From an uncultured Lachnospiraceae bacterium (GTDB lineage Bacteria; Bacillota; Clostridia; Lachnospirales; Lachnospiraceae), in contig CALWSF010000023.1 of the NCBI GenBank assembly GCA_944384125.1, positions 1-56,190 of the forward strand: a stretch of 56,190 bases of DNA, in the 5' to 3' direction. Numbering within the stretch: the stretch's first letter is position 1; every line of letters begins with the position of its first letter. A program made the translations under genes and the position numbers. The notes beneath the pieces are model-generated. The model did no database searches, was not told the DNA's origin, and saw only the letters and a program-made list of their open reading frames with translations. This document shows positions 6,359 through 15,867 of the stretch, piece by piece.

Positions 6359-8437
6359 TTACACAAAAAACGCATATAGCAGATACACAAGCGTTGTACA
6401 CAGACCAATACAGAACAGCATCAGACCAAAGGAAAAGCTTTCCTCTACCATATTAATAACATGTTTTGCATCTCTCTCCCTCTCGCACATTCTCCCAACC
6501 GAGGAGGGACGGCAGCCCAGCCGCCTCCTGCGGCCTGTCAGACAGTCAGACGCACCAAGCAGAATATCCTCTGCCGTTCCCACTATGACTGCCAGCCAGT
6601 TTCCCTCTGACTGACTTCTGTGTTCTTTTACCTGGCGATGGGTTGTTTTTCGCGCCAGGAGAATGAGTCCGTCTGCCATCTGATCCATGGCACGGCAGAA
6701 AACCGCCGAAACAGCCATAAAAGTCCTCGCCAGAGCCGGAAACAGACGCTCATCCGTCCAGGTAAAAACTGTTCCGAATATTCCCGGCAGCAAAACCGTA
6801 AGCACCGGTCTGTATATGAGATTTTCCAGATCAAGCCACGCCGGCCACCGATCCACATAATACCATGTATCCCCAACCCGTTTTCTGAGCCACATGCGCA
6901 CCGGCCCCAGATAAAGAACGATTCCGATTCCTAAAGAAATAAGGGACCCCTGCATATTCTTCCATGACCAGTAAGCTACTGATTCCGCCGTCTTTCCTCC
7001 CAGAAACGACTGACCCAGATCCGCAATAAAATCCATTGTCACTGAGGGCGTCAGACCCAGGAAAAAGAGAAGAGCTGCAGGCAGACTGATTGCCAGACTT
7101 CCAGGGAGGGACATATAGGAAGTCCCCATACTGTCAAATTCCGGCTGCCGCACAGGATGGCGCTCCACAAACAAAGCGACTGTCAGCTTCAGCATATAAG
7201 CAGCCGTCATCCCTCCTGCCAGAAGAAAAATCCATTCTGTCACAGTCCAGACAGCCGGGGATAAAAGCACCTTTGCCGCCTCCGGAAAAACAGGCGCCCC
7301 TGACAGTCCCACATCCAGAGTATGATGAACCGTCAGCTCCCGGTATTCCACAATCGCCTCATGAAGCAGCGTTTTGCTGACATATCCGTTCCAGAACGGT
7401 ACACCGCTTATGCCCAGCGCGCCCATGAGAAAAGAGAAAAACAGAGCCGGTTTTCTGCGGCCAAAACCTCTTATTTCATTGAGGTTCAGCTCATGAAGAT
7501 TCATAAAAACAGCTCCGGCACACAGAAACAGTACCAGCTTCAGGAGGGAATGATTTACCATATGAAGGAACACACCTCTTACTGCCAGAGAATTTTCCTC
7601 CCCCGCCCATGATAAAAGAGAGCTCACGCCAAGCCCCGTCATAATGAAACCTATCTGTGACACAGAAGAACAGGCCAGTGTCCGTTTAAGATCCACGGAA
7701 AACAGCGCAAGGAAAGCACCGGCCAGCATGGTAACAGCTCCCAGGACACATATTAAAAGCCCCCATGCCCCATTGCCTGAAAACATATGACATGTAAGAA
7801 AAATAACCCCGAAAATCCCTGTTTTTGTGAGAATTCCGGACAGCAGGGCACTGGCAGGAGCCGGAGCGACGGGATGAGCTTTGGGAAGCCATATGTGCAG
7901 CGGAAAAACACCTGCTTTCGCGCCAAATCCCACAAGCATCATAACTCCCGATACATACAGAAGTTTCCTCTCTCCGGCCGTATCCCCGCCTCCGGAAAGT
8001 ATCTGCCGGGCCCTCTCTGCCGCCTCATCCATCTCCAGTGTCCCGCAGAGATTATTCAAAATGAAAAGTCCCATTAAAAGAGTCATTCCGCCTATTACTG
8101 CCACCGCCAGATACGTCTGGGCAGCCCGAAGGCTCTCCTTTCTCTCATCAAAGGCAACCCATACATAAGAGGTAAATGACATAATCTCAAAAAACAGAAA
8201 AAATGTATACAGATCAGCAGACAGAAACACTCCTGCCGTAGCAATAAAGGTTGCCCAGAAAAAAATATAATACCTTTTTCTTTTTTCATAATGGGCCATG
8301 TATTCCCGTGAAAAAATCCCGCATGCCGTCCACATCAGAACTGCAAGACATGCGTAAACCAGGCGGAATCCGTCAAGACGGAAATGGAGTCCCATACCTC
8401 CAAAACCGGTTGCATACAAATCGTACACCTGCATCAT
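6359..8437 (-). CDS. Mrp/NuoL-type antiporter-like subunit, fourth paralogue (D4)
   Basis: A 692-residue polytopic membrane protein of the proton-conducting transporter family (NuoL/M/N, MrpA/D). The conserved proton-path residues are present: E84 (LFFEIMSF), K174 (FGAKAGVFPLH), K205 (LTKTG), K300 (NHSLLKLVLF) and K355 (GYVSKTLL). Compared with its three upstream paralogues, where the first Glu is at 137-142, it lacks roughly the first two membrane helices. It carries a long C-terminal extension: an amphipathic, Arg-rich stretch (~530-660) and a last membrane helix (~668-690). That resembles the lateral helix of NuoL-type subunits. The start overlaps the stop of the preceding gene as ATGA, with GGAGG 9 nt upstream. 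It is the last gene of the Mrp cluster. Confidence 0.88.
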   Translation of the reverse strand: MMQVYDLYATGFGGMGLHFRLDGFRLVYACLAVLMWTACGIFSREYMAHYEKRKRYYIFFWATFIATAGVFLSADLYTFFLFFEIMSFTSYVWVAFDERKESLRAAQTYLAVAVIGGMTLLMGLFILNNLCGTLEMDEAAERARQILSGGGDTAGERKLLYVSGVMMLVGFGAKAGVFPLHIWLPKAHPVAPAPASALLSGILTKTGIFGVIFLTCHMFSGNGAWGLLICVLGAVTMLAGAFLALFSVDLKRTLACSSVSQIGFIMTGLGVSSLLSWAGEENSLAVRGVFLHMVNHSLLKLVLFLCAGAVFMNLHELNLNEIRGFGRRKPALFFSFLMGALGISGVPFWNGYVSKTLLHEAIVEYRELTVHHTLDVGLSGAPVFPEAAKVLLSPAVWTVTEWIFLLAGGMTAAYMLKLTVALFVERHPVRQPEFDSMGTSYMSLPGSLAISLPAALLFFLGLTPSVTMDFIADLGQSFLGGKTAESVAYWSWKNMQGSLISLGIGIVLYLGPVRMWLRKRVGDTWYYVDRWPAWLDLENLIYRPVLTVLLPGIFGTVFTWTDERLFPALARTFMAVSAVFCRAMDQMADGLILLARKTTHRQVKEHRSQSEGNWLAVIVGTAEDILLGASDCLTGRRRRLGCRPSSVGRMCERERDAKHVINMVEESFSFGLMLFCIGLCTTLVYLLYAFFV

Positions 8438-9987
8438 GCCGCCGCACCTCCTATCCGGCCAAAAAGCTCAAGAAATGGTCCCGGATACAGTCCCATAAAA
8501 AGAATAACCCCTGCAAAAATAAACAATGGCACCAGCATCTCCCACCCCGGATCACAGTTGGCGCATACATCATTTTCTTCCGTTTCCGCCGTTTTTAATG
8601 ACCCCTCTGACACTCTGGGGAAATATGCACGCACAAGAACAGACAGCATATAAACAGCCGTCATAAGCGCCGAATAAAGAATAACAGCCACCCCCAGAAC
8701 AGGCAGAAAAGCCCCCCATTTGCCTTCTTCCACGATACTGCTCCCATAAGAAAGCGCGGCACCACACAGATTCCATTTGCTGACAAAGCCTGCAAAAAGC
8801 GGAATACCCATGAGAGAAAGACTGGCGACTGTAAGGCAGCCAAAGGTTGCCGGCATACGTTTTCCGAGCCCGTCCAGCTCATAAACGTAATTTTTCCCTG
8901 TCTGATGCATCACGGCCCCCGCGCAGAAAAATGAGCAGATCTTCATAAACGCATGTGCTGCCATATGACACAGCGCGGCCGCCAGGCCAAATGGCGTCAT
9001 AATTGCCGCCCCGAACAGTATATAGGACAGGTTGCTGACGGTCGAATAGGCCAGTCTCCGTTTCCAGTGTATTTCCTTTACTGCCATTGTGGAACCAAAG
9101 AGTATGGTCAGAAGTGCAGCAGCCATGACAGTATACTGGGCCCAGCTTCCTCTCAGAAATGATGCACCGAAACTGAAATACGTAAAGCGCATCACAGCAA
9201 AAGCTCCCGACTTTACGACCGCTACCGCATGTAAAAGTGCCGTTACCGGTGTGGGAGCAACCGTCGCCCGCGGAAGCCACACATAACAGGGCAGAAGAGC
9301 CGCCTTTACTCCAAATCCGAAAAAAGCCAGGACATAAACCAGAAGAAGCATATCCCGCTGCTGTGTCATCGCCTGTGTGCTGAGTATTCCGCCTGCAATA
9401 AACTCTGAAGTCCCGGTTGATGAAAAAACAAGGACAAATATGATGCCGATAAACGCAAAGGCGGCTCCCCCTATGGAATAGTAAAGATATGTCCGGCTGG
9501 CAAGCACCGCCTCTCTTGAAAGCGGAAACAGAACAAGCGGAAATGTGACAAGAGTAAGCATCTCATAAAATATATACAGAGTCACAAGATTTCCTGCCAG
9601 CGCAATCCCCAGAGTTACCCCGTATGTCATTACGTAATATGCAAAAAAAGTTCCTTTCCTCTTTTCTTCCCGCATATACGCCAGAGAAAACAGTGTAGCC
9701 AGGGGCCATAAAACAGCTATAAGACCTGCAAAGAATCCTCCCATCAGATCAAGCTTAAACATAACTGACAGGTTGGAATAAAGCCGGAAAAGCACAACCC
9801 GCCGGCCCCACATATCACTGCATAAAAGCAGCAGAACAAGAAGACTGTTAAAAGAAACAACGCCAAGTGTTACTCTTTCCAGGCATTTGCCTCCTATCCT
9901 GCGATGTCCGGCCAGCTTCGCAAGAAGCAGGATTCCGCCTCCCATCAGAGGAAGCAGCACCGGAACAGTAAGCAGAAAACCTTTCAT
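8434..9987 (-). CDS. Mrp/NuoM-type antiporter-like subunit (D3)
   Basis: A 517-residue integral membrane protein with about 14 predicted helices, of the NuoM/MrpD antiporter-like family that carries H+ or Na+ across the membrane. Key charged residues are retained: E142 (FYEMLTL), K228 (FGVKAALLP), K259 (VVKSG), K349 (HAFMKICSF) and K404 (GFVSKWNL). The usual MFPLHxWLP stretch reads LLPCYVWLPRA, so the His found in the paralogues is replaced by Tyr here. GGAGG lies 6 nt before the ATG at 9987, and the gene follows D2 with a 13-nt gap. It is the third of four tandem D-type subunits and is clearly divergent from the others rather than a recent duplicate. Confidence 0.9.
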   Translation of the reverse strand: MKGFLLTVPVLLPLMGGGILLLAKLAGHRRIGGKCLERVTLGVVSFNSLLVLLLLCSDMWGRRVVLFRLYSNLSVMFKLDLMGGFFAGLIAVLWPLATLFSLAYMREEKRKGTFFAYYVMTYGVTLGIALAGNLVTLYIFYEMLTLVTFPLVLFPLSREAVLASRTYLYYSIGGAAFAFIGIIFVLVFSSTGTSEFIAGGILSTQAMTQQRDMLLLVYVLAFFGFGVKAALLPCYVWLPRATVAPTPVTALLHAVAVVKSGAFAVMRFTYFSFGASFLRGSWAQYTVMAAALLTILFGSTMAVKEIHWKRRLAYSTVSNLSYILFGAAIMTPFGLAAALCHMAAHAFMKICSFFCAGAVMHQTGKNYVYELDGLGKRMPATFGCLTVASLSLMGIPLFAGFVSKWNLCGAALSYGSSIVEEGKWGAFLPVLGVAVILYSALMTAVYMLSVLVRAYFPRVSEGSLKTAETEENDVCANCDPGWEMLVPLFIFAGVILFMGLYPGPFLELFGRIGGAAA

Positions 9988-10000
9988 ACGCGCCCTCCCG

Positions 10001-11491
10001 TCACATCACAGCAGCCGCTATAGATTCCAAAAACCGGATCAGACTTCCCGGAAAACAGCCAAACAGCAGAGATGCCGCAGCAAATATCACAATGGGAATC
10101 CTCATCCGGGCAGACGGCTCTCTCCCCGAAAGCTGCCTCTCTTCAATTTCCTCTCCCCTGAAATCAGAACCGGGAAAATAACCGTTTACTGTAAGCGGCA
10201 GAAGATATCCCGCTGTCAGAAGGGCGCTCACAAGAAGCACCGCCGGCCCCGCAAAAGACCAGACCCCCGTTCCGGATTCCAGGGCACCGGATGCCAGAAA
10301 CCATTTGCTCACAAAACCGCTGGCAGGAGGAATTCCCACAAGTCCCAGAGAAGCAACCGTATACCACGCCAGCGTCCGGGGCATAACCCGTCCCAGGCCC
10401 CGCATCTCATCTGTCCGTGTCCATCCTGTCGTGACAATGACAGCGCCCGCAACCAGGAAAAGAGCATTTTTTATAAGTGAATGGAACACGATATGGGACA
10501 GAGCCCCTGCAAAAGCTGTTGCGTTCAGAAGCCCCAATCCAAACAGGATATAAGAAACCTGACTCACTGTCGAATATGCCAGTCTTTTTTTCAGTACCGG
10601 TTCCCGGTACGCCAGCATAGACCCCATAAAAACAGTCAGCAGCGTCAGAAAGATCCAGGTATTCTGCACCCAGGTTCCTCTGATGGATTCCGGTCCGATC
10701 ACAAAATACACAACACGAATGACAGCCAGAACACCGGATTTCGTGATGACACCTGAGAGAACCGCACTGGCCGGAGCCGGGGCAACAGGATGCGCTGTGG
10801 GAAGCCATCCGTGAAGAGGAAACATGCCTGCCTTTGCGCCAAATCCCACCAGCATACAGAAAACAGCCACGAGAAACAGCGCTCTGCTCTGCCCGAGCAC
10901 TGCAGAATCAAGAGCCCCTCCCGCACAAAATTCCAGGGTCGTTACTCCGGACAGGAAAAAAATTCCAAACAGTGCCAGAAAGGCCCCCGCCACCGAGTAA
11001 AACAGATACTTAAGCCCCGCCATAATGGCCTGACGGCTCTTCTCATGAAGAACCAGCGGCAGAGAGGTCAGTGTCATAAGCTCATAGAAAACATACAGGG
11101 TAATCAGATTGGCAGACAGATCCAGTCCGATAAGTACCCCCTCCACGATCAGATAGAAGCCAAAAAACCGGGTTTCCTCTTTTTCATGCCTCATATAGGA
11201 AATGGAATATATTCCCGACAGCAGCCACACAGACGCAGTAAGAAGCCCGAACAGACAGCTTATCCCGTCAGCTCTGAAGACAAGTGCAAGTGAATCCGTT
11301 ATGCTCCACAGCGTAACCGTTACATCCGTCATCAGTGCAGAGACCACAAACAGCAGCTGCACAGCCAGAACCGCTGTTACTATCCCCTCCTCAAGTTTTC
11401 GTCTTTTCCGGAAAACCGGCATTGCCATAAGGAAAATTCCGGCGGCAATCGGGAAAAAAATCGGCAATATCAATCTTACGTTTTCTTCCAT
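10001..11491 (-). CDS. Mrp/NuoM-type antiporter-like subunit (D2)
   Basis: A 496-residue polytopic membrane protein of the NuoM/MrpD family. Conserved ion-path residues: E137 (VFYELMTL), K220 (FGAKAGMFPLHGWLP), K251 (ITKSG), K341 (HSLIKNALF) and K396 (GFVSKWFL). AGAGGAG lies just before the ATG at 11491. It follows D1 with an 11-nt gap in the same operon. A charged cytoplasmic loop (~425-450, FRGEEIEERQLSGREPS) precedes the last helices. In Mrp complexes each such subunit forms one cation channel, so this protein probably adds a second translocation path beside D1. Confidence 0.9.
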   Translation of the reverse strand: MEENVRLILPIFFPIAAGIFLMAMPVFRKRRKLEEGIVTAVLAVQLLFVVSALMTDVTVTLWSITDSLALVFRADGISCLFGLLTASVWLLSGIYSISYMRHEKEETRFFGFYLIVEGVLIGLDLSANLITLYVFYELMTLTSLPLVLHEKSRQAIMAGLKYLFYSVAGAFLALFGIFFLSGVTTLEFCAGGALDSAVLGQSRALFLVAVFCMLVGFGAKAGMFPLHGWLPTAHPVAPAPASAVLSGVITKSGVLAVIRVVYFVIGPESIRGTWVQNTWIFLTLLTVFMGSMLAYREPVLKKRLAYSTVSQVSYILFGLGLLNATAFAGALSHIVFHSLIKNALFLVAGAVIVTTGWTRTDEMRGLGRVMPRTLAWYTVASLGLVGIPPASGFVSKWFLASGALESGTGVWSFAGPAVLLVSALLTAGYLLPLTVNGYFPGSDFRGEEIEERQLSGREPSARMRIPIVIFAAASLLFGCFPGSLIRFLESIAAAVM

Positions 11492-11502
11492 TTTTATCTC
11501 CT

Positions 11503-12999
11503 CTATCCAAACATCGAAAGCCCCTCCCGGATGGCTCCGACAATTGGCTGAGACGCAAGTCCCAGAATAAAATTAAGCACCACGAAGCACACAATTGAAA
11601 TCCGCAGAGCAAAGGAACTCTTTGGCTGTGCGGCCTGTTCCTCCCCATACACGCCCCGGCGCGAATAGACAGAAATAACAAGCCTGAGAAAATACACCGC
11701 ATTAAGCGTCGTACTGACCGCCAGTACTATAAGAGTCGGCAGCATCTTCCCAGGGCTCTGAAGCGCTGACGTCGCGAAAAGCAGCTTGGATATAAAGCCC
11801 GACAGCATGGGAAATCCCACCATGGAAAGCGCTCCCACCGTAAATCCGATTCCGGCCACGGGATTGCGGTAAGCCGCTCCCCGCAGACTTTCCGGGTTCC
11901 GTTTTCCCCCCGATACATCGTAAAGCCCTACGGCACTGATAAAAAGAAGCGCCTTTGTGGCAGAATGCGTAAAAACATGAAACAGAGCTGCAATGACTCC
12001 TGCCTCTGTACCCAGGCCGATTCCCATATAAATATACCCAATCTGGGCAACTGATGAATAGGCTATCATACGCCCCGTGTCCCTTTCACGTATTGCATGG
12101 AGAGAGCCCATCAGCATGCCCGCAATGCCGAAGATATACAGTACATTTACCATGTGGCTGTCTATGATATTCTCCGTTCCCAGCACACGGAAGAAAATCT
12201 TGACAAGAAGAAAAATGTAGCCTTTTGAAACCAGACCCGACAGAACCGCACTGGCGGTCGGCGTGGCATATCCGTAAGTATCGGGAATCCAGTAATGAAA
12301 CGGATACAGTCCGCTCTTAATAGCCAGTCCCACGCTGATAACAGCAAGAACCACAAGCATGGGAATCTCATAACGCCCGTCAGCCAGAATCGCCGCCACC
12401 GCCTCTTTCGCCGGGCTCATCAGAAGATGACCCGTAATGTCATAGAGAATACTCAGACCAATCAGAAACAGGCCGGATCCCAGCTGACTCAGTATCATGT
12501 AACGAATCGCTGCCGACAGACTGCGTCCCCGCATCCGGATCATTATCAGGCCGCATCCCGCAATCGTGTTAATCTCCACAAACACATAGGCAGTAAAAAG
12601 ATCGTTTGTATAAACAAGAGCCAGAAGGGAACTGAGCATCAGATCAATCATAATGTAAAACAGATTGAGCTTTGACGCCTCCACATCCTCCACTGCATCA
12701 TTCATGCCTCCCAGAACAGAGAGAAACATGACAATTCCGAACATAACCGCCGTGAGCCCCTCCAGTACACCGGCCCGTATCTCATTTCCCCAGGGGGCCG
12801 GAAAATGCCCCATCATATACGTATAGCTTTCCCCTGTTTCCCGGCAGAAAAACAGTACGCAGGCAGACATGGCAGTCGTGATTCCAATCATGCAAAGGCT
12901 CAGATCACGGGCGCGCCGCCCGGACAGAACGGAGGACACAATTCCTGAAAACATGGCAAGTATAATCGAAAAAAAGGGGAAATTCTGCACGAAGCTCAT
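11503..12999 (-). CDS. mrpD: Na+/H+ antiporter subunit D (MrpD/MbhH-like, D1)
   Basis: A 498-residue membrane protein and the best match in the cluster to canonical MrpD/MbhH, both by position directly after mrpC and by sequence. Ion-path residues: E142 (FVEINTIAGCG), K228 (LAIKSGLYPFHYW), K259 (LVSKG), K349 (HSATKALLF) and K405 (GFISKLLF). The ATG overlaps the mrpC stop as ATGA, with AAGGAGGAG just upstream. MrpD exchanges Na+ (or K+) for H+ across the cytoplasmic membrane as part of the multisubunit complex. Confidence 0.92.
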   Translation of the reverse strand: MSFVQNFPFFSIILAMFSGIVSSVLSGRRARDLSLCMIGITTAMSACVLFFCRETGESYTYMMGHFPAPWGNEIRAGVLEGLTAVMFGIVMFLSVLGGMNDAVEDVEASKLNLFYIMIDLMLSSLLALVYTNDLFTAYVFVEINTIAGCGLIMIRMRGRSLSAAIRYMILSQLGSGLFLIGLSILYDITGHLLMSPAKEAVAAILADGRYEIPMLVVLAVISVGLAIKSGLYPFHYWIPDTYGYATPTASAVLSGLVSKGYIFLLVKIFFRVLGTENIIDSHMVNVLYIFGIAGMLMGSLHAIRERDTGRMIAYSSVAQIGYIYMGIGLGTEAGVIAALFHVFTHSATKALLFISAVGLYDVSGGKRNPESLRGAAYRNPVAGIGFTVGALSMVGFPMLSGFISKLLFATSALQSPGKMLPTLIVLAVSTTLNAVYFLRLVISVYSRRGVYGEEQAAQPKSSFALRISIVCFVVLNFILGLASQPIVGAIREGLSMFG

Positions 13000-13370
13000 T
13001 GCTTCTCCTCCTTCGCAAGCATCAGGATTTCATCCAGATTGAGAGAGCCGTACTTTTCATAAAGCCGCTTCGTCAGCGCCAGCATAAGAGCCGTTGTACT
13101 GACAGACACCACAATTCCCGTCAGCACAAGACCGCTGGGAACAGGATTAATATACAGGGAGGCATCCAGGGTCTCCTCAGTTACAATGGGTACCATTCTC
13201 CCGTCGATATATCCTTTGGCTGCCAGAAAAAGATAGACTGCCGTGTCCATTATATTCATTCCCATTATCTTCTTAATAAGATTCTGGTGCAGCAGAAGCA
13301 TGGTAAAGCCCACACCAAACAGAATAACCGACACTGTTGCCTCAAGATTCCGGCTGAAAAATTCCAGCAT
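12996..13370 (-). CDS. mrpC: Na+/H+ antiporter subunit C (MrpC/NuoK-like)
   Basis: A 124-residue protein with three membrane helices (about 7-26, 32-48, 73-98), matching the NuoK/MrpC/MbhG family. The family signatures LHQNLIKKIMGMNIM and SGLVLTGIVVSVSTTALMLAL (two halves of the second helix pair) are visible. I use the ATG at 13370, which abuts the stop of the MbhE-B fusion gene and has an AGGGGGG site ~9 nt upstream; a longer frame to 13439 would run into that gene. It overlaps mrpD by 4 nt. Confidence 0.9.
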   Translation of the reverse strand: MLEFFSRNLEATVSVILFGVGFTMLLLHQNLIKKIMGMNIMDTAVYLFLAAKGYIDGRMVPIVTEETLDASLYINPVPSGLVLTGIVVSVSTTALMLALTKRLYEKYGSLNLDEILMLAKEEKQ

Positions 13371-13371
13371 C

Positions 13372-14367
13372 CTACATTCCCCCCTTCCGGAACAGGGTAT
13401 AAAATGCATACATGGTACATGCCACCACAAGACCCACACAGATATTCAGCGGCAGAATCAGGCCGCTGCTTAAAATGTGCCCCGGTATTCCAAGAGGAAT
13501 CCCGCTTTCCAGATGATTCGCGCCCGTGTAAAATGAATAGCTCTTTGCAAGACAGTAAAAACTGAGAGCACACACGGTCACACGTCTGTATACCCGCTCT
13601 GTAAAAAAACGTTCTGTCTTTTTAAAGCCAAATGCATTCAGATACAAAATCAGACCGGAGCCAAGAACAGCTCCCCCGGAAAAACCTCCCCCCGGGGACA
13701 GATGTCCGTTGAGGATAATATAGATTCCGAAAATAAATATGAACGGAACCAGGACACATGCGCACTTCTGCAGTATAATATCATTTTTCGGTTCAAACAG
13801 GCGATCATTCTCATCCATCAGACGCTTTTTCTCTCTGTCCCCGCTGGCTGCATCAATCCGCAAAAGAGCCAGAACACAGCAGGAAGCGATAAAGAGCACG
13901 CATGACTCTCCGAAGGTATCAAACGCTCTGTAATCCAGAATCATTCCCGTAACTGCATTGACGGCCCCGGTCTCCTCAAGTCCCTTTTCCAGATACCGCA
14001 TCGGAACCTCATTGTTGGCCGGATTGGCCGCATTCCCAAAGGGCGGAAGATAGAGCACCGTCCAGAGAAGAACGGAAATAATTCCCAGACACAGAATAAC
14101 CGACATCACGCAGTAAAAGCGGCGAAAGAAGCGGATTCCCCGGCTTTTTAAAACGGCCTCATCCTCTTCATGCCGGTCCCCGTACATCCCACTCTCTTCG
14201 ATATCTTCAAAAGGAAAAACATCCCCCGGATCAGACGCTTTTTCTCTATCCCGAACCGAAGGCACCTGAATCTCCACTCCCTGTTCCAGCGGATCTATTT
14301 CTCCTGCTTCCCAGCGAAGAAACTTCTTCCACCGGCTTGTCTCATAATTATCTCTTCTTCTGCTCAT
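13372..14367 (-). CDS. mrpB: Fused MbhE-like / MnhB (MrpB) antiporter subunit
   Basis: A 331-residue protein joining parts that are separate genes in archaeal Mbh clusters. Residues 1-78 are a charged, probably cytoplasmic extension that I cannot match. Residues ~82-170 hold two membrane helices around LPPFGNAANPANNEVPMRY, the MbhE-like domain (equivalent to the tail of MrpA). Residues ~195-325 are the MnhB/MbhF domain with its signature GHLSPGGGFSGG (221-232) and four helices. The start at ATG 14367 is supported by GGGGGG 5 nt upstream; a GTG at 14391 lacks a site. It overlaps the preceding DUF4040 gene by 20 nt and abuts mrpC. Confidence 0.87.
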   Translation of the reverse strand: MSRRRDNYETSRWKKFLRWEAGEIDPLEQGVEIQVPSVRDREKASDPGDVFPFEDIEESGMYGDRHEEDEAVLKSRGIRFFRRFYCVMSVILCLGIISVLLWTVLYLPPFGNAANPANNEVPMRYLEKGLEETGAVNAVTGMILDYRAFDTFGESCVLFIASCCVLALLRIDAASGDREKKRLMDENDRLFEPKNDIILQKCACVLVPFIFIFGIYIILNGHLSPGGGFSGGAVLGSGLILYLNAFGFKKTERFFTERVYRRVTVCALSFYCLAKSYSFYTGANHLESGIPLGIPGHILSSGLILPLNICVGLVVACTMYAFYTLFRKGGM

Positions 14368-14614
14368 TCTGTCCCCCCTTTTGAATGGCACCTATTTTTT
14401 TCAGTGTGACAAAAAACAGAATGCTCGTCACTCCCGCTCCCACAGCCGCCTCTGTGATAGCGAGATCAGGGGACTGCAAAAGCACCCATATCATGCACAT
14501 AATCAGGCTGTAAGACATAAATATAATGATGGATGTGAGCAGATTCTTTGTAAAGGCAACTGAAACAGAGCAGACAATCAGGCTCAGAAGAAGAATCGCT
14601 TCAAACACTCTCAT
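14348..14614 (-). CDS. DUF4040 subunit (MrpA C-terminal / MbhD-like)
   Basis: An 88-residue protein with three membrane helices. QSPDLAITEAAVGAGVTSILF is characteristic (residues ~51-71) of the DUF4040/MbhD domain, which is the C-terminal region of MrpA in seven-subunit Mrp systems and a separate gene in Mbh-type operons. The start at ATG 14614 is set by AGGAGG at 14624-14629; upstream in-frame codons fall inside mrpG and lack a site. It overlaps mrpG by 14 nt. Its presence as a free gene, with no full-length MrpA, places this cluster in the Mbh-like arrangement. Confidence 0.87.
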   Translation of the reverse strand: MRVFEAILLLSLIVCSVSVAFTKNLLTSIIIFMSYSLIMCMIWVLLQSPDLAITEAAVGAGVTSILFFVTLKKIGAIQKGGQNEQKKR

Positions 14615-14993
14615 GCTCCAATTCCTCCTCCCCTGCAATTGGGGATTCCTCCCCGTCAGCGCCGATCGCATCAAATTCCAGAACAGCCATTTCTCCCAGA
14701 TCCTCATCCGTCATAGCTTCCAGCCGGCTGATCATATGCCCGGAAACAGGCGATGCAACCCAGAAAAAAAGAATCACAAGAAACAGCTTGAGCGAACTCA
14801 TCGAAAATCCGCGGATCAGCATAAGTCCAAGGAACACAAACAGAATGCCCAGCGTATCTCCCATTGCAGCCGCATGCATCCGGTTCAGTGCATGATGCAG
14901 GCGGTTAACACCGAATACAGAAAGAATCATAAAGACAATTCCCACTGCAAAACATCCCCCCGCAAGAATAAAACGTACCCACTCAAGAATCAT
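14601..14993 (-). CDS. mrpG: Na+/H+ antiporter subunit G
   Basis: A 130-residue MnhG/MrpG protein with three membrane helices and the family's central NRLHHALNRMHAAAMGDTLG region. The last ~35 residues are acidic and cytoplasmic, longer than a minimal MrpG. It overlaps mrpF by 4 nt (ATGA) and precedes the DUF4040 gene. In Mrp complexes E, F and G form the distal small-subunit module needed for assembly and transport. Confidence 0.9.
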   Translation of the reverse strand: MILEWVRFILAGGCFAVGIVFMILSVFGVNRLHHALNRMHAAAMGDTLGILFVFLGLMLIRGFSMSSLKLFLVILFFWVASPVSGHMISRLEAMTDEDLGEMAVLEFDAIGADGEESPIAGEEELEHESV

Positions 14994-15400
14994 TTCCCAT
15001 CCTCCTCCCCGGCAGCATGACGGCCTTTATTATCTCTTACGTCCCTTTCACGGCACTCCTCTCCCTGGTGTGTCAGATTATCCGCAATTGCACCGAAGTC
15101 CGGCTTCAGCTTTTTTTTCTGAAGGTAGACGCCCGTATAAACTTTACACAGAACAACGACTCCCAGAAAACTTATCATCGCATAAATCAGACATACATCC
15201 ACCAGATAATCTTCCTCCAGGAAAACCGACAGTATGGCAATAGCCGTAATAACCATAGTGCCGGTCATATTGATCGCAATAATACGGTCCGAAATTCCGG
15301 GGCCCAGAAAAGAGCGAATCATACTGGCGATAATGAGAACGGCCAGAATAATCAGCGACCCCAACAAAAGTATGTCATATGCCTGTTCTGTCAACCCCAC
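14990..15400 (-). CDS. mrpF: Na+/H+ antiporter subunit F
   Basis: A 136-residue MnhF/MrpF protein with three membrane helices; the family signature LGPGISDRIIAINMTGT is at about 32-48. The C-terminal ~40 residues are a charged hydrophilic tail that is not part of the core domain. The start is GTG at 15400 with AGGAGG 4 nt upstream, overlapping the end of mrpE by 10 nt, which suggests coupled translation. Confidence 0.9.
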   Translation of the reverse strand: MGLTEQAYDILLLGSLIILAVLIIASMIRSFLGPGISDRIIAINMTGTMVITAIAILSVFLEEDYLVDVCLIYAMISFLGVVVLCKVYTGVYLQKKKLKPDFGAIADNLTHQGEECRERDVRDNKGRHAAGEEDGK

Positions 15401-15867
15401 TGCGCCTCCTTCTCTTCCATTTCACGAAGCAGCTCTACGAAAACCGAATGCTCAATCCCTTCCGCCAGTTCGCGATCCAGACAGTGAACACAGTATCTGT
15501 CTCCCTCCACTGAAACTGTTATTGTCCCTGGCGTAAGGGTAATGGAATTTGCCAGAATAACCCGTGCCATACCCGTACGGAATACCGCCGTAAAATACAC
15601 CAGAGCAGGCTCAGGCATGATTTCCGGCGACGTAATAATACGCAGAACACAGACATTTGCCCGGACGATTTCCCGGACAAGCGCCCAGAAGTACCGGATG
15701 CCCAGAGGAATCAGCCGGAACAGAAGAATCTCCCGCCGCACACTGTAATCCAGATATCTGCACATAAAATAAAACAGCGCAGCTGAAATCCCAACGCCAA
15801 AGATACATATCTCCAATGTAATCCTTCCATTTAAAATCAGCCACGCTGCAAAAAGCAATAACAGCAT
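15391..15867 (-). CDS. mrpE: Na+/H+ antiporter subunit E
   Basis: A 158-residue MnhE/MrpE protein, first gene of the ten-gene antiporter cluster. An N-terminal pair of membrane helices is followed by a soluble domain with the typical ANSITLTPGTITVSVEGD stretch (~104-121) and a closing amphipathic region. I use ATG 15867 with AGGGGTGA just upstream; the longer frame begins with a TTG at 15939 that has no ribosome-binding site. A promoter lies ~130 nt upstream. Confidence 0.9.
   Translation of the reverse strand: MLLLLFAAWLILNGRITLEICIFGVGISAALFYFMCRYLDYSVRREILLFRLIPLGIRYFWALVREIVRANVCVLRIITSPEIMPEPALVYFTAVFRTGMARVILANSITLTPGTITVSVEGDRYCVHCLDRELAEGIEHSVFVELLREMEEKEAQWG

Follow-up and report, generated by a model that had tools for sequence, protein, structure and literature searches.

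The ten adjacent minus-strand genes at positions 6359-15867 of contig CALWSF010000023.1, from an uncultured Lachnospiraceae bacterium, encode in order homologues of MrpE, MrpF, MrpG, MbhD, a fusion of MbhE and MnhB, MrpC, and four antiporter-like proteins that we name D1 to D4 (the whole 56,190-nucleotide stretch analysed is referred to as the window). We think it probable, at roughly 0.6, that this cluster specifies a secondary antiporter that stands alone and exchanges cations for protons, a member of the Mrp (CPA3) family of the type known as group 3, with one cation module and a row of four antiporter-like subunits, C-D1-D2-D3-D4. Group 3 Mrp is an already known kind of transporter, of which this is an enlarged version; what sets this one apart is its four-D layout and the position of an acidic residue that, in classical Mrp, belongs to the sodium path.

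The nature of the cluster follows from its genes. All ten open reading frames are intact, and adjoin or overlap with distances of -107 to +13 nt between neighbours, which fits a single transcription unit. Each protein scored above its Pfam cut-off – MNHE, MrpF_PhaF, PhaG_MnhG_YufB, MbhD, MnhB together with MbhE on a single protein, Oxidored_q2, and, for four proteins, Proton_antipo_M, the last with E-values of 2.6e-50 to 5.8e-55; the NCBIfam matches listed (for the D proteins the best 25 each) all lay below the curated cut-offs. The gene order resembling that of membrane-bound hydrogenase (MBH), and the presence of four D-type proteins, both put forward in an initial annotation made from the sequence, are borne out by Pfam and, for the order, by matches to solved structures.

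The cluster is not an isolated oddity. A search of genome contigs with the MbhE-B protein, a query that favours this kind of cluster, gave 361 relatives, of which the 80 best constitute our related-locus set. All ten genes are present with order and strand alike at 67 of these 80 loci, and the other 13 meet contig ends and show their visible genes in order; at L078 (loci are given by our own identifiers), 482 bases beyond D3 contain no match to D4. Most of these loci are titled Lachnospiraceae, and others Hungatella, Enterocloster, Butyricicoccus and Candidatus Onthenecus. Versions with three D genes are common in our phylum sample. The cluster is not universal: MNHE was matched in 139 of 398 phylum genomes and, among five same-family genomes of the phylum draw, in the window's own genome only.

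Their proton-path residues mark the four D proteins as antiporter-like subunits. The Glu, Lys and Lys noted by the initial annotation are kept in all four, and conservation extends to a fourth residue, completing the signature of Glu in transmembrane helix (TM) 5, Lys in TM7, Lys in TM8 and Lys or Glu in TM12: E142/K228/K259/K405 in D1, E137/K220/K251/K396 in D2, E142/K228/K259/K404 in D3 and E84/K174/K205/K355 in D4. Escherichia coli NuoM carries Glu at TM12; none of the four does. Among related-locus orthologues reaching 85% of the length of the window protein, window included, the four residues are all kept in D1 (74/74), D2 (70/70) and D4 (68/68), and one D3 of 70 has Asn in place of Lys-TM8; of the 78 D rows that other non-classical clusters contribute to our tree, 9 lack one or two of these residues.

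The same tree shows that in clusters of the window's kind D1, D2, D3 and D4 form separate groups that agree with gene position. D1 (a starred group of 31 rows) is MbsH/MbhH/MrpD-like, the D2 and D3 groups are sisters within one starred group of 22 rows, and D4 stands apart from the MrpA rows. Judged by sequence, D2 and D3 are the products of a tandem duplication. D4 begins at what is MrpA residue 49, so that about two N-terminal helices are missing. In its AF2 model a lateral helix (537-598) is followed by two more helices, one at 614-634 and a final one at 646-691 that includes a hydrophobic stretch (block pLDDT 55-80 over 531-600 and 34-76 beyond); the best structural matches are MrpA chains, and the alignment to 7qru_A stops at model residue 564, leaving the final helix unmatched. 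On the strength of this model, D4 is an MrpA(N)/NuoL-like end subunit with a predicted lateral helix and a predicted final anchoring helix, and D2 and D3 are accordingly the subunits that have been added. The initial annotation spoke of three extra subunits: the additions are real, but the three are not equivalents. As an observation in its own right, about two N-terminal TM helices are missing from at least 30 of 68 D4 proteins (that of the window, with its start at 8434-8440, and at least 29 relatives), apparently in two separate groups. Animal ND2, which is without its first helices, offers a parallel.

A second body of evidence concerns the cation site. In classical Mrp, D35 of MrpF is described as 'invariably conserved' on the sodium path, and the complex loses its activity with the change D35L; replacement of the same Asp by Glu or Asn in B. 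subtilis itself has a mild effect (PMC7419157). Simulations show Na+ binding at the equivalent MrpF residue D38 (PMC9568556). In the window this place – D35 of A. flavithermus, D38 of B. pseudofirmus – is occupied by Asn44. By alignment it is Asp in 6cfw_B, 6u8y_B, 6z16_F, 7qru_F and 7d3u_F and in 11/11 classical clusters, and Asn in all 79 related-locus rows (window included); in all 64 other uncut clusters with at least three D genes the residue is Asn (50), Gly (12), Ala (1) or Leu (1). Scanning for an acid that might compensate led to position 46 of MrpG, which in the window is an Asp within the motif RMHAAAMGDTLG, an acid absent from classical MrpG. This position is Asp in 81 of 81 related-locus rows (window included). 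The 64 multi-D clusters all have Asp or Glu there, and 10 of 10 classical clusters have Ser, Ala, Thr or Leu, never an acid.

The pairing is without exception. Cluster by cluster, the acid is on MrpG only in 156 cases, on MrpF only in 16, and on both or neither in none (172/172); an alignment-free motif search gave the same result for 146 of 146, the remaining 26 clusters being unmatched by the patterns. The rule also held in all seven named plasmid clusters with both proteins readable, of which those from four haloarchaea and Acaryochloris (with a poorly alignable MrpF) are of the G type and those from two alphaproteobacteria of the F type; the plasmid loci L195, L200 and L202 were not scored. 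The four solved complexes with both subunits matched (6z16, 7qru, 6cfw, 6u8y), MBH and membrane-bound sulfane reductase (MBS) among them, are of the F type; the G type comprises every scored cluster with three or more D genes and part of those with two or one. On a tree built from MrpC and the next D for 96 clusters, the types require two changes, one of them forced by starred branches, and the 172 cases therefore represent a few independent events kept without exception and not 172 tests. As read from these sequences the two types are a deep split that extends to the haloarchaea. The MrpF and MrpG positions may be in contact. On the exit side, Glu86 of the window's MbhD (equivalent to E69 of MbhD in 6cfw_D) and Asp158 and Glu162 of MbhE are each present in 81 of 81 members of the related-locus set.

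Comparison with described systems places the cluster nearest to group 3. Group 3 Mrp lacks mrpA and has mrpD 'sometimes with multiple copies' (PMC8415708), and in the window the MrpE, F, G, B, C and D homologues lie in one cluster, with no fused mrpA (A(N)+A(C)) and with MbhD and MbhE separate from all D genes. An Aphanothece cluster with two mrpD genes (CD1D2EFGAB) has Na+/H+ activity, and Ito et al. remark that the clusters of anaerobes look markedly different (both PMC5703873); in a group 3 Mrp of Nitrospira, mrpD is followed by two more genes of the NuoM/NuoL kind (PMC7784846). As described, these two resemble the window in their extra mrpD-like genes and in having no redox genes in the cluster, and the stand-alone Mrp of P. 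furiosus resembles it in having neither a fused mrpA gene nor redox genes in the cluster. The window differs from known group 3 systems in its four D-type genes, its fused MbhE+MnhB and its recurrent ten-gene order. An mrpA-like gene of Natranaerobius was set aside as a parallel, being described as a single-gene antiporter outside any cluster.

Classical group 1 Mrp (6z16, 7qru) shares with the window all seven module types, if MrpA is equated with D4+MbhD+MbhE, and the same key residues in the D chain. It differs in that the window has MrpA divided among three genes and two D subunits more – so that MrpA and MrpD are not the sole antiporter-like subunits, there being four Proton_antipo_M proteins – the acid on MrpG and not at the sodium-path position of MrpF, which sets it apart from group 2 also, and a replaced His pair in MrpC. 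MBH and MBS of P. furiosus (6cfw, 6u8y) have the same mbhA-H gene order and the MbhD Glu, and MBS in addition an MbhE+F fusion (MbsE) and an H'-like end subunit; unlike them, the window has no hydrogenase or sulfane reductase module, has four D subunits, and is missing the MrpF Asp present in 6cfw_B and 6u8y_B. Our searches of the open-licence literature turned up no account of a stand-alone Mrp with four D subunits, of the acid swap between F and G, of the recurrent four-D ten-gene layout, of the D2/D3 duplication or of the D4 architecture.

How might such an exchanger work? We propose that one cation module (E, F, G, MbhD, MbhE-B and C) is joined to the row D1-D4, which D4 would close by means of its lateral helix. 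Na+ or K+ would cross at the E/F/G-MbhD-C interface, with MrpG supplying the carboxylate that classical MrpF provides; as the cation moves where C meets D1, its motion would be relayed from D1 to D4 through the Glu-TM5/Lys-TM7/Lys-TM8/Lys-TM12 chain, and each D subunit would move one proton in the opposite direction. Two antiporter-like units on one cation path are held to move two H+ per Na+, and the same authors argue that in complex I-like enzymes the row can grow to three or four (PMC7419157); applied to D1-D4 this argument yields up to four H+ per cation, above the 2:1 proposed for MrpA+MrpD. The four cation paths envisaged as a maximum in the initial annotation are better read as four proton paths: because there is a single E-F-G-MbhD/E-B-C module, the cation would have one path.

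With n H+ exchanged per cation, the cation-motive force at equilibrium would be n-fold the proton-motive force. A steep Na+ gradient could then be sustained by a weak proton gradient; alternatively, a Na+ gradient made by Rnf could be converted to outward proton movement. Since Mrp exchangers run on ion gradients (PMC7419157), the additional driver not encoded in the window, for which the initial annotation allowed, is unneeded, and its suggestion of a larger complex or pure exchanger is the likeliest reading. That the four D proteins co-assemble in one complex, and that the complex carries out cation-dependent proton antiport, we infer from sequence; linear order, identity of the ion, direction and stoichiometry are proposed in the same conditional sense.

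Several observations weigh against a four-subunit row of this kind. Stoichiometry is unsettled even for classical Mrp (PMC7419157, PMC9568556). D4 is by sequence nearest to MbhH and falls outside the MrpA rows in the tree, and the classical MrpC His pair (H37, H40) aligns with Thr66 and Tyr69 of the window protein, from which it follows that the cation site differs from that of classical Mrp. The clusters at L131, L141 and L143 each hold several end-type D genes, which makes exchangeable end subunits possible.

The length of the D4 linker belongs with these points. Chadwick et al. (2018) reportedly described a 2M complex I with four antiporter-like subunits, proposed to raise the number of H+ per cycle. 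It shares with the window four such subunits in a complex I-related membrane arm, but has redox genes and a lengthened NuoL, whereas the window has neither redox genes nor consistent lengthening of its end subunit (2M complex I as cited in PMC6606698). A linear row leads one to expect that the linker between TM15 and the last helix of D4 lengthens with the number of D genes. Median linkers rose, being 33 residues for one D gene (n=2), 45 for two (n=7), 83.5 for three (n=54), and for four 105 in the related-locus set (n=67) and 115.5 in other clusters including the window (n=8), the anchors being unreliable for one-D rows, some two-D rows and L135/L156. The ranges overlap widely (four D, 71-214; three D, 54-192; two D, 0-207), and close relatives are not consistently different: four-D L086/L087 have 101/99 against 96 in three-D L093, and the four-D values of 71 (L088), 90 (L089), 145 (L147) and 130 (window) compare with 78 (L187), 93 (L095), 101 (L085/L092/L094) and 138 (L091) in three-D relatives. 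Linker length thus fails to track D gene number, and we rejected it as support for a linear arrangement. Amphipathic helices confounded a hydropathy count made on the same linkers. The last D gene of L116, L123, L130 and L137 has linkers of 156-207 residues with, by eye, repeats of about 22 residues.

This lack of correspondence speaks for a rival reading, in which two or more alternative complexes share one cation module, with D2, D3 and D4 as exchangeable partners of D1, and each complex holds two or three antiporter-like subunits with ordinary stoichiometry. The odd sets of end-type genes – two D4-type at L131 and L141, three at L143 – likewise look as if a module had several end subunits. 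Opposed to this reading are the retention of four D genes in one order at all 67 complete related loci, the key residues kept in full-length orthologues but for one D3, window D genes that overlap or sit within 13 nt of each other, and the position-matching tree groups of D1-D4. We regard such isoforms as unlikely.

Still less likely, in our estimation, is that the exchanged ion is K+, Ca2+ or another cation in place of Na+, and that the D subunits serve pH homeostasis and not energy conversion. The replacement of the MrpF Asp and the MrpC His pair would suit such a change, and one Mrp is reported to catalyse Ca2+/H+ antiport (PMC5703873). Against it, one or the other of the F and G positions retains an acid, and the MbhD and MbhE acids are invariant in the related-locus set. 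The only ATP-synt_C matches in the genome fall in one 186-residue frame (G000:C1:54428-54853, L191), a V-type K subunit as judged by its two halves, with no match to a separate F-type c subunit in that search. Its motifs LPGTQG and METY, which we take to be the Na+ ligands of Enterococcus NtpK, hint at a Na+ economy, and such an economy is plausible for the source bacterium.

A redox-driven pump for which the cluster would supply the membrane arm and other loci the catalytic module, as in MBH, MBS or complex I, is a notion that draws on the gene order and the MbhD/MbhE/B proteins but is very improbable, given that the large (PF00346, PF00374), small (PF01058) and linker (PF00146) subunits, each matched in control genomes, had no match at E 0.001 in the 94.33%-complete draft genome, that Rnf is dispensable to four-D clusters, and that no neighbouring gene is common to all 80 related loci. 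The initial annotation's statement that there is no redox module thus holds for the whole draft, in which these searches gave no NuoB/NuoD or NiFe-type proteins and no NuoH-type linker, and in which the four cluster proteins are the only Proton_antipo_M (PF00361) matches. Two adjacent Rnf-Nqr matches occur in the genome, with RnfB-, RnfD- and RnfG-like frames nearby by our own reading, and Rnf is present in 110 of 147 class genomes. Four-D genomes exist both with Rnf (G118, G140) and without an Rnf-Nqr match (G010, G043, G049; the G010 cluster is cut by a contig end), and we therefore draw no link between Rnf and the cluster. The commonest neighbour family, which by eye resembles a tRNA methyltransferase, occurs at 27 of 80 loci; the 14 commonest families were compared and judged by eye, and more than 3 kb of upstream sequence was present at 59 of 80.

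The four-D exchanger that we favour can be set within a graded series. In a hand-chosen sample of stretches from other Clostridia and the phylum, with a Peptoclostridium acidaminophilum plasmid (frequencies are biased by the choice), 94 of 101 scanned loci contain a cluster: among those uncut, five have one D gene, eight two, 54 three, seven four, one five and two seven, and 11 are classical with A and D, six more being cut by contig ends. Some of the one-D clusters may be fragments. Three-D clusters of similar layout lie on haloarchaeal plasmids, and outside the window's group MbhE and MnhB are mostly separate genes. It is a tentative idea, with the odds against it, that stand-alone Mrp forms a deep subfamily with the acid on MrpG, in which the number of D subunits has gone from one or two to three, four and perhaps beyond to give H+/cation 'gearboxes' of differing ratio, the window's being geared at 4 H+ to 1 cation.

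The sample held other arrangements. L131:703-14996 and L141:3322-17821 each have seven D-type genes, two of them end-type (D4-like), with one E-F-G-MbhD module, in genomes of one family that each carry a second Mrp cluster; L143 has three D4-type genes. In Halobaculum marinum a single 3291-nt gene lies after D1 (L193:5995-9285) and, from its length and match to D2, may be two fused D subunits. In P. acidaminophilum a histidine kinase and a response regulator directly follow a three-D Mrp cluster (L187:15629-17903), and possibly control the antiporter.

Coordinates are collected below; the real start of MbhD is probably downstream of 14707. The cluster is flanked on its 5' side by a PLP-dependent enzyme and on its 3' side by polyphosphate kinase and a CorA-like protein. 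Scans returned 17 promoter-like sites (10.3 expected) and 16 terminator-like sites (13.7 expected), and were not used.

Table 1. Genes and predicted features of the ten-gene cluster, from first to last gene.
Feature	Coordinates	Strand	Basis and details
MrpE (MbhA-like), 158 aa from ATG at 15867	15391..15867	-	Pfam MNHE, E 6.9e-27
MrpF (MbhB-like), 136 aa	14990..15400	-	Pfam MrpF_PhaF; Asn44 codon 15269-15271
MrpG (MbhC-like), 130 aa	14601..14993	-	Pfam PhaG_MnhG_YufB; Asp46 codon 14856-14858
MbhD (DUF4040; MrpA C-terminal part)	14348..14707	-	Pfam MbhD, 7e-20; alignment to 6cfw_D
MbhE + MnhB fusion, 339 aa	13372..14391	-	Pfam MnhB + MbhE; best solved match 6u8y_E
MrpC (MbhG/NuoK-like)	12996..13439	-	Pfam Oxidored_q2; 6u8y_G and 6cfw_G
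D1, 498 aa, MbsH/MbhH/MrpD-like, beside MrpC	11503..12999	-	Pfam Proton_antipo_M; best solved matches 6u8y_H, 6cfw_H, 7qru_D
D2, 496 aa, middle antiporter-like subunit	10001..11491	-	Pfam; D2 group sister to D3 group
D3, 517 aa, middle antiporter-like subunit, tandem duplicate of D2	8434..9987	-	Pfam; tree
D4, 692 aa, end subunit, MrpA(N)/NuoL-like architecture (predicted)	6359..8437	-	Pfam Proton_antipo_M
Predicted lateral helix of D4, residues 537-598	6644..6829	-	Secondary structure of model

The number of protons moved per antiporter-like subunit is still argued for both complex I and Mrp. A redox-free series with one to four D subunits is one in which the H+/cation ratio could be measured against subunit number. 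The strict transfer of the acid from MrpF to MrpG serves as a marker by which the Mrp clusters of this study fall into two sets from sequence, and it indicates a site of cation entry that mutagenesis could test.

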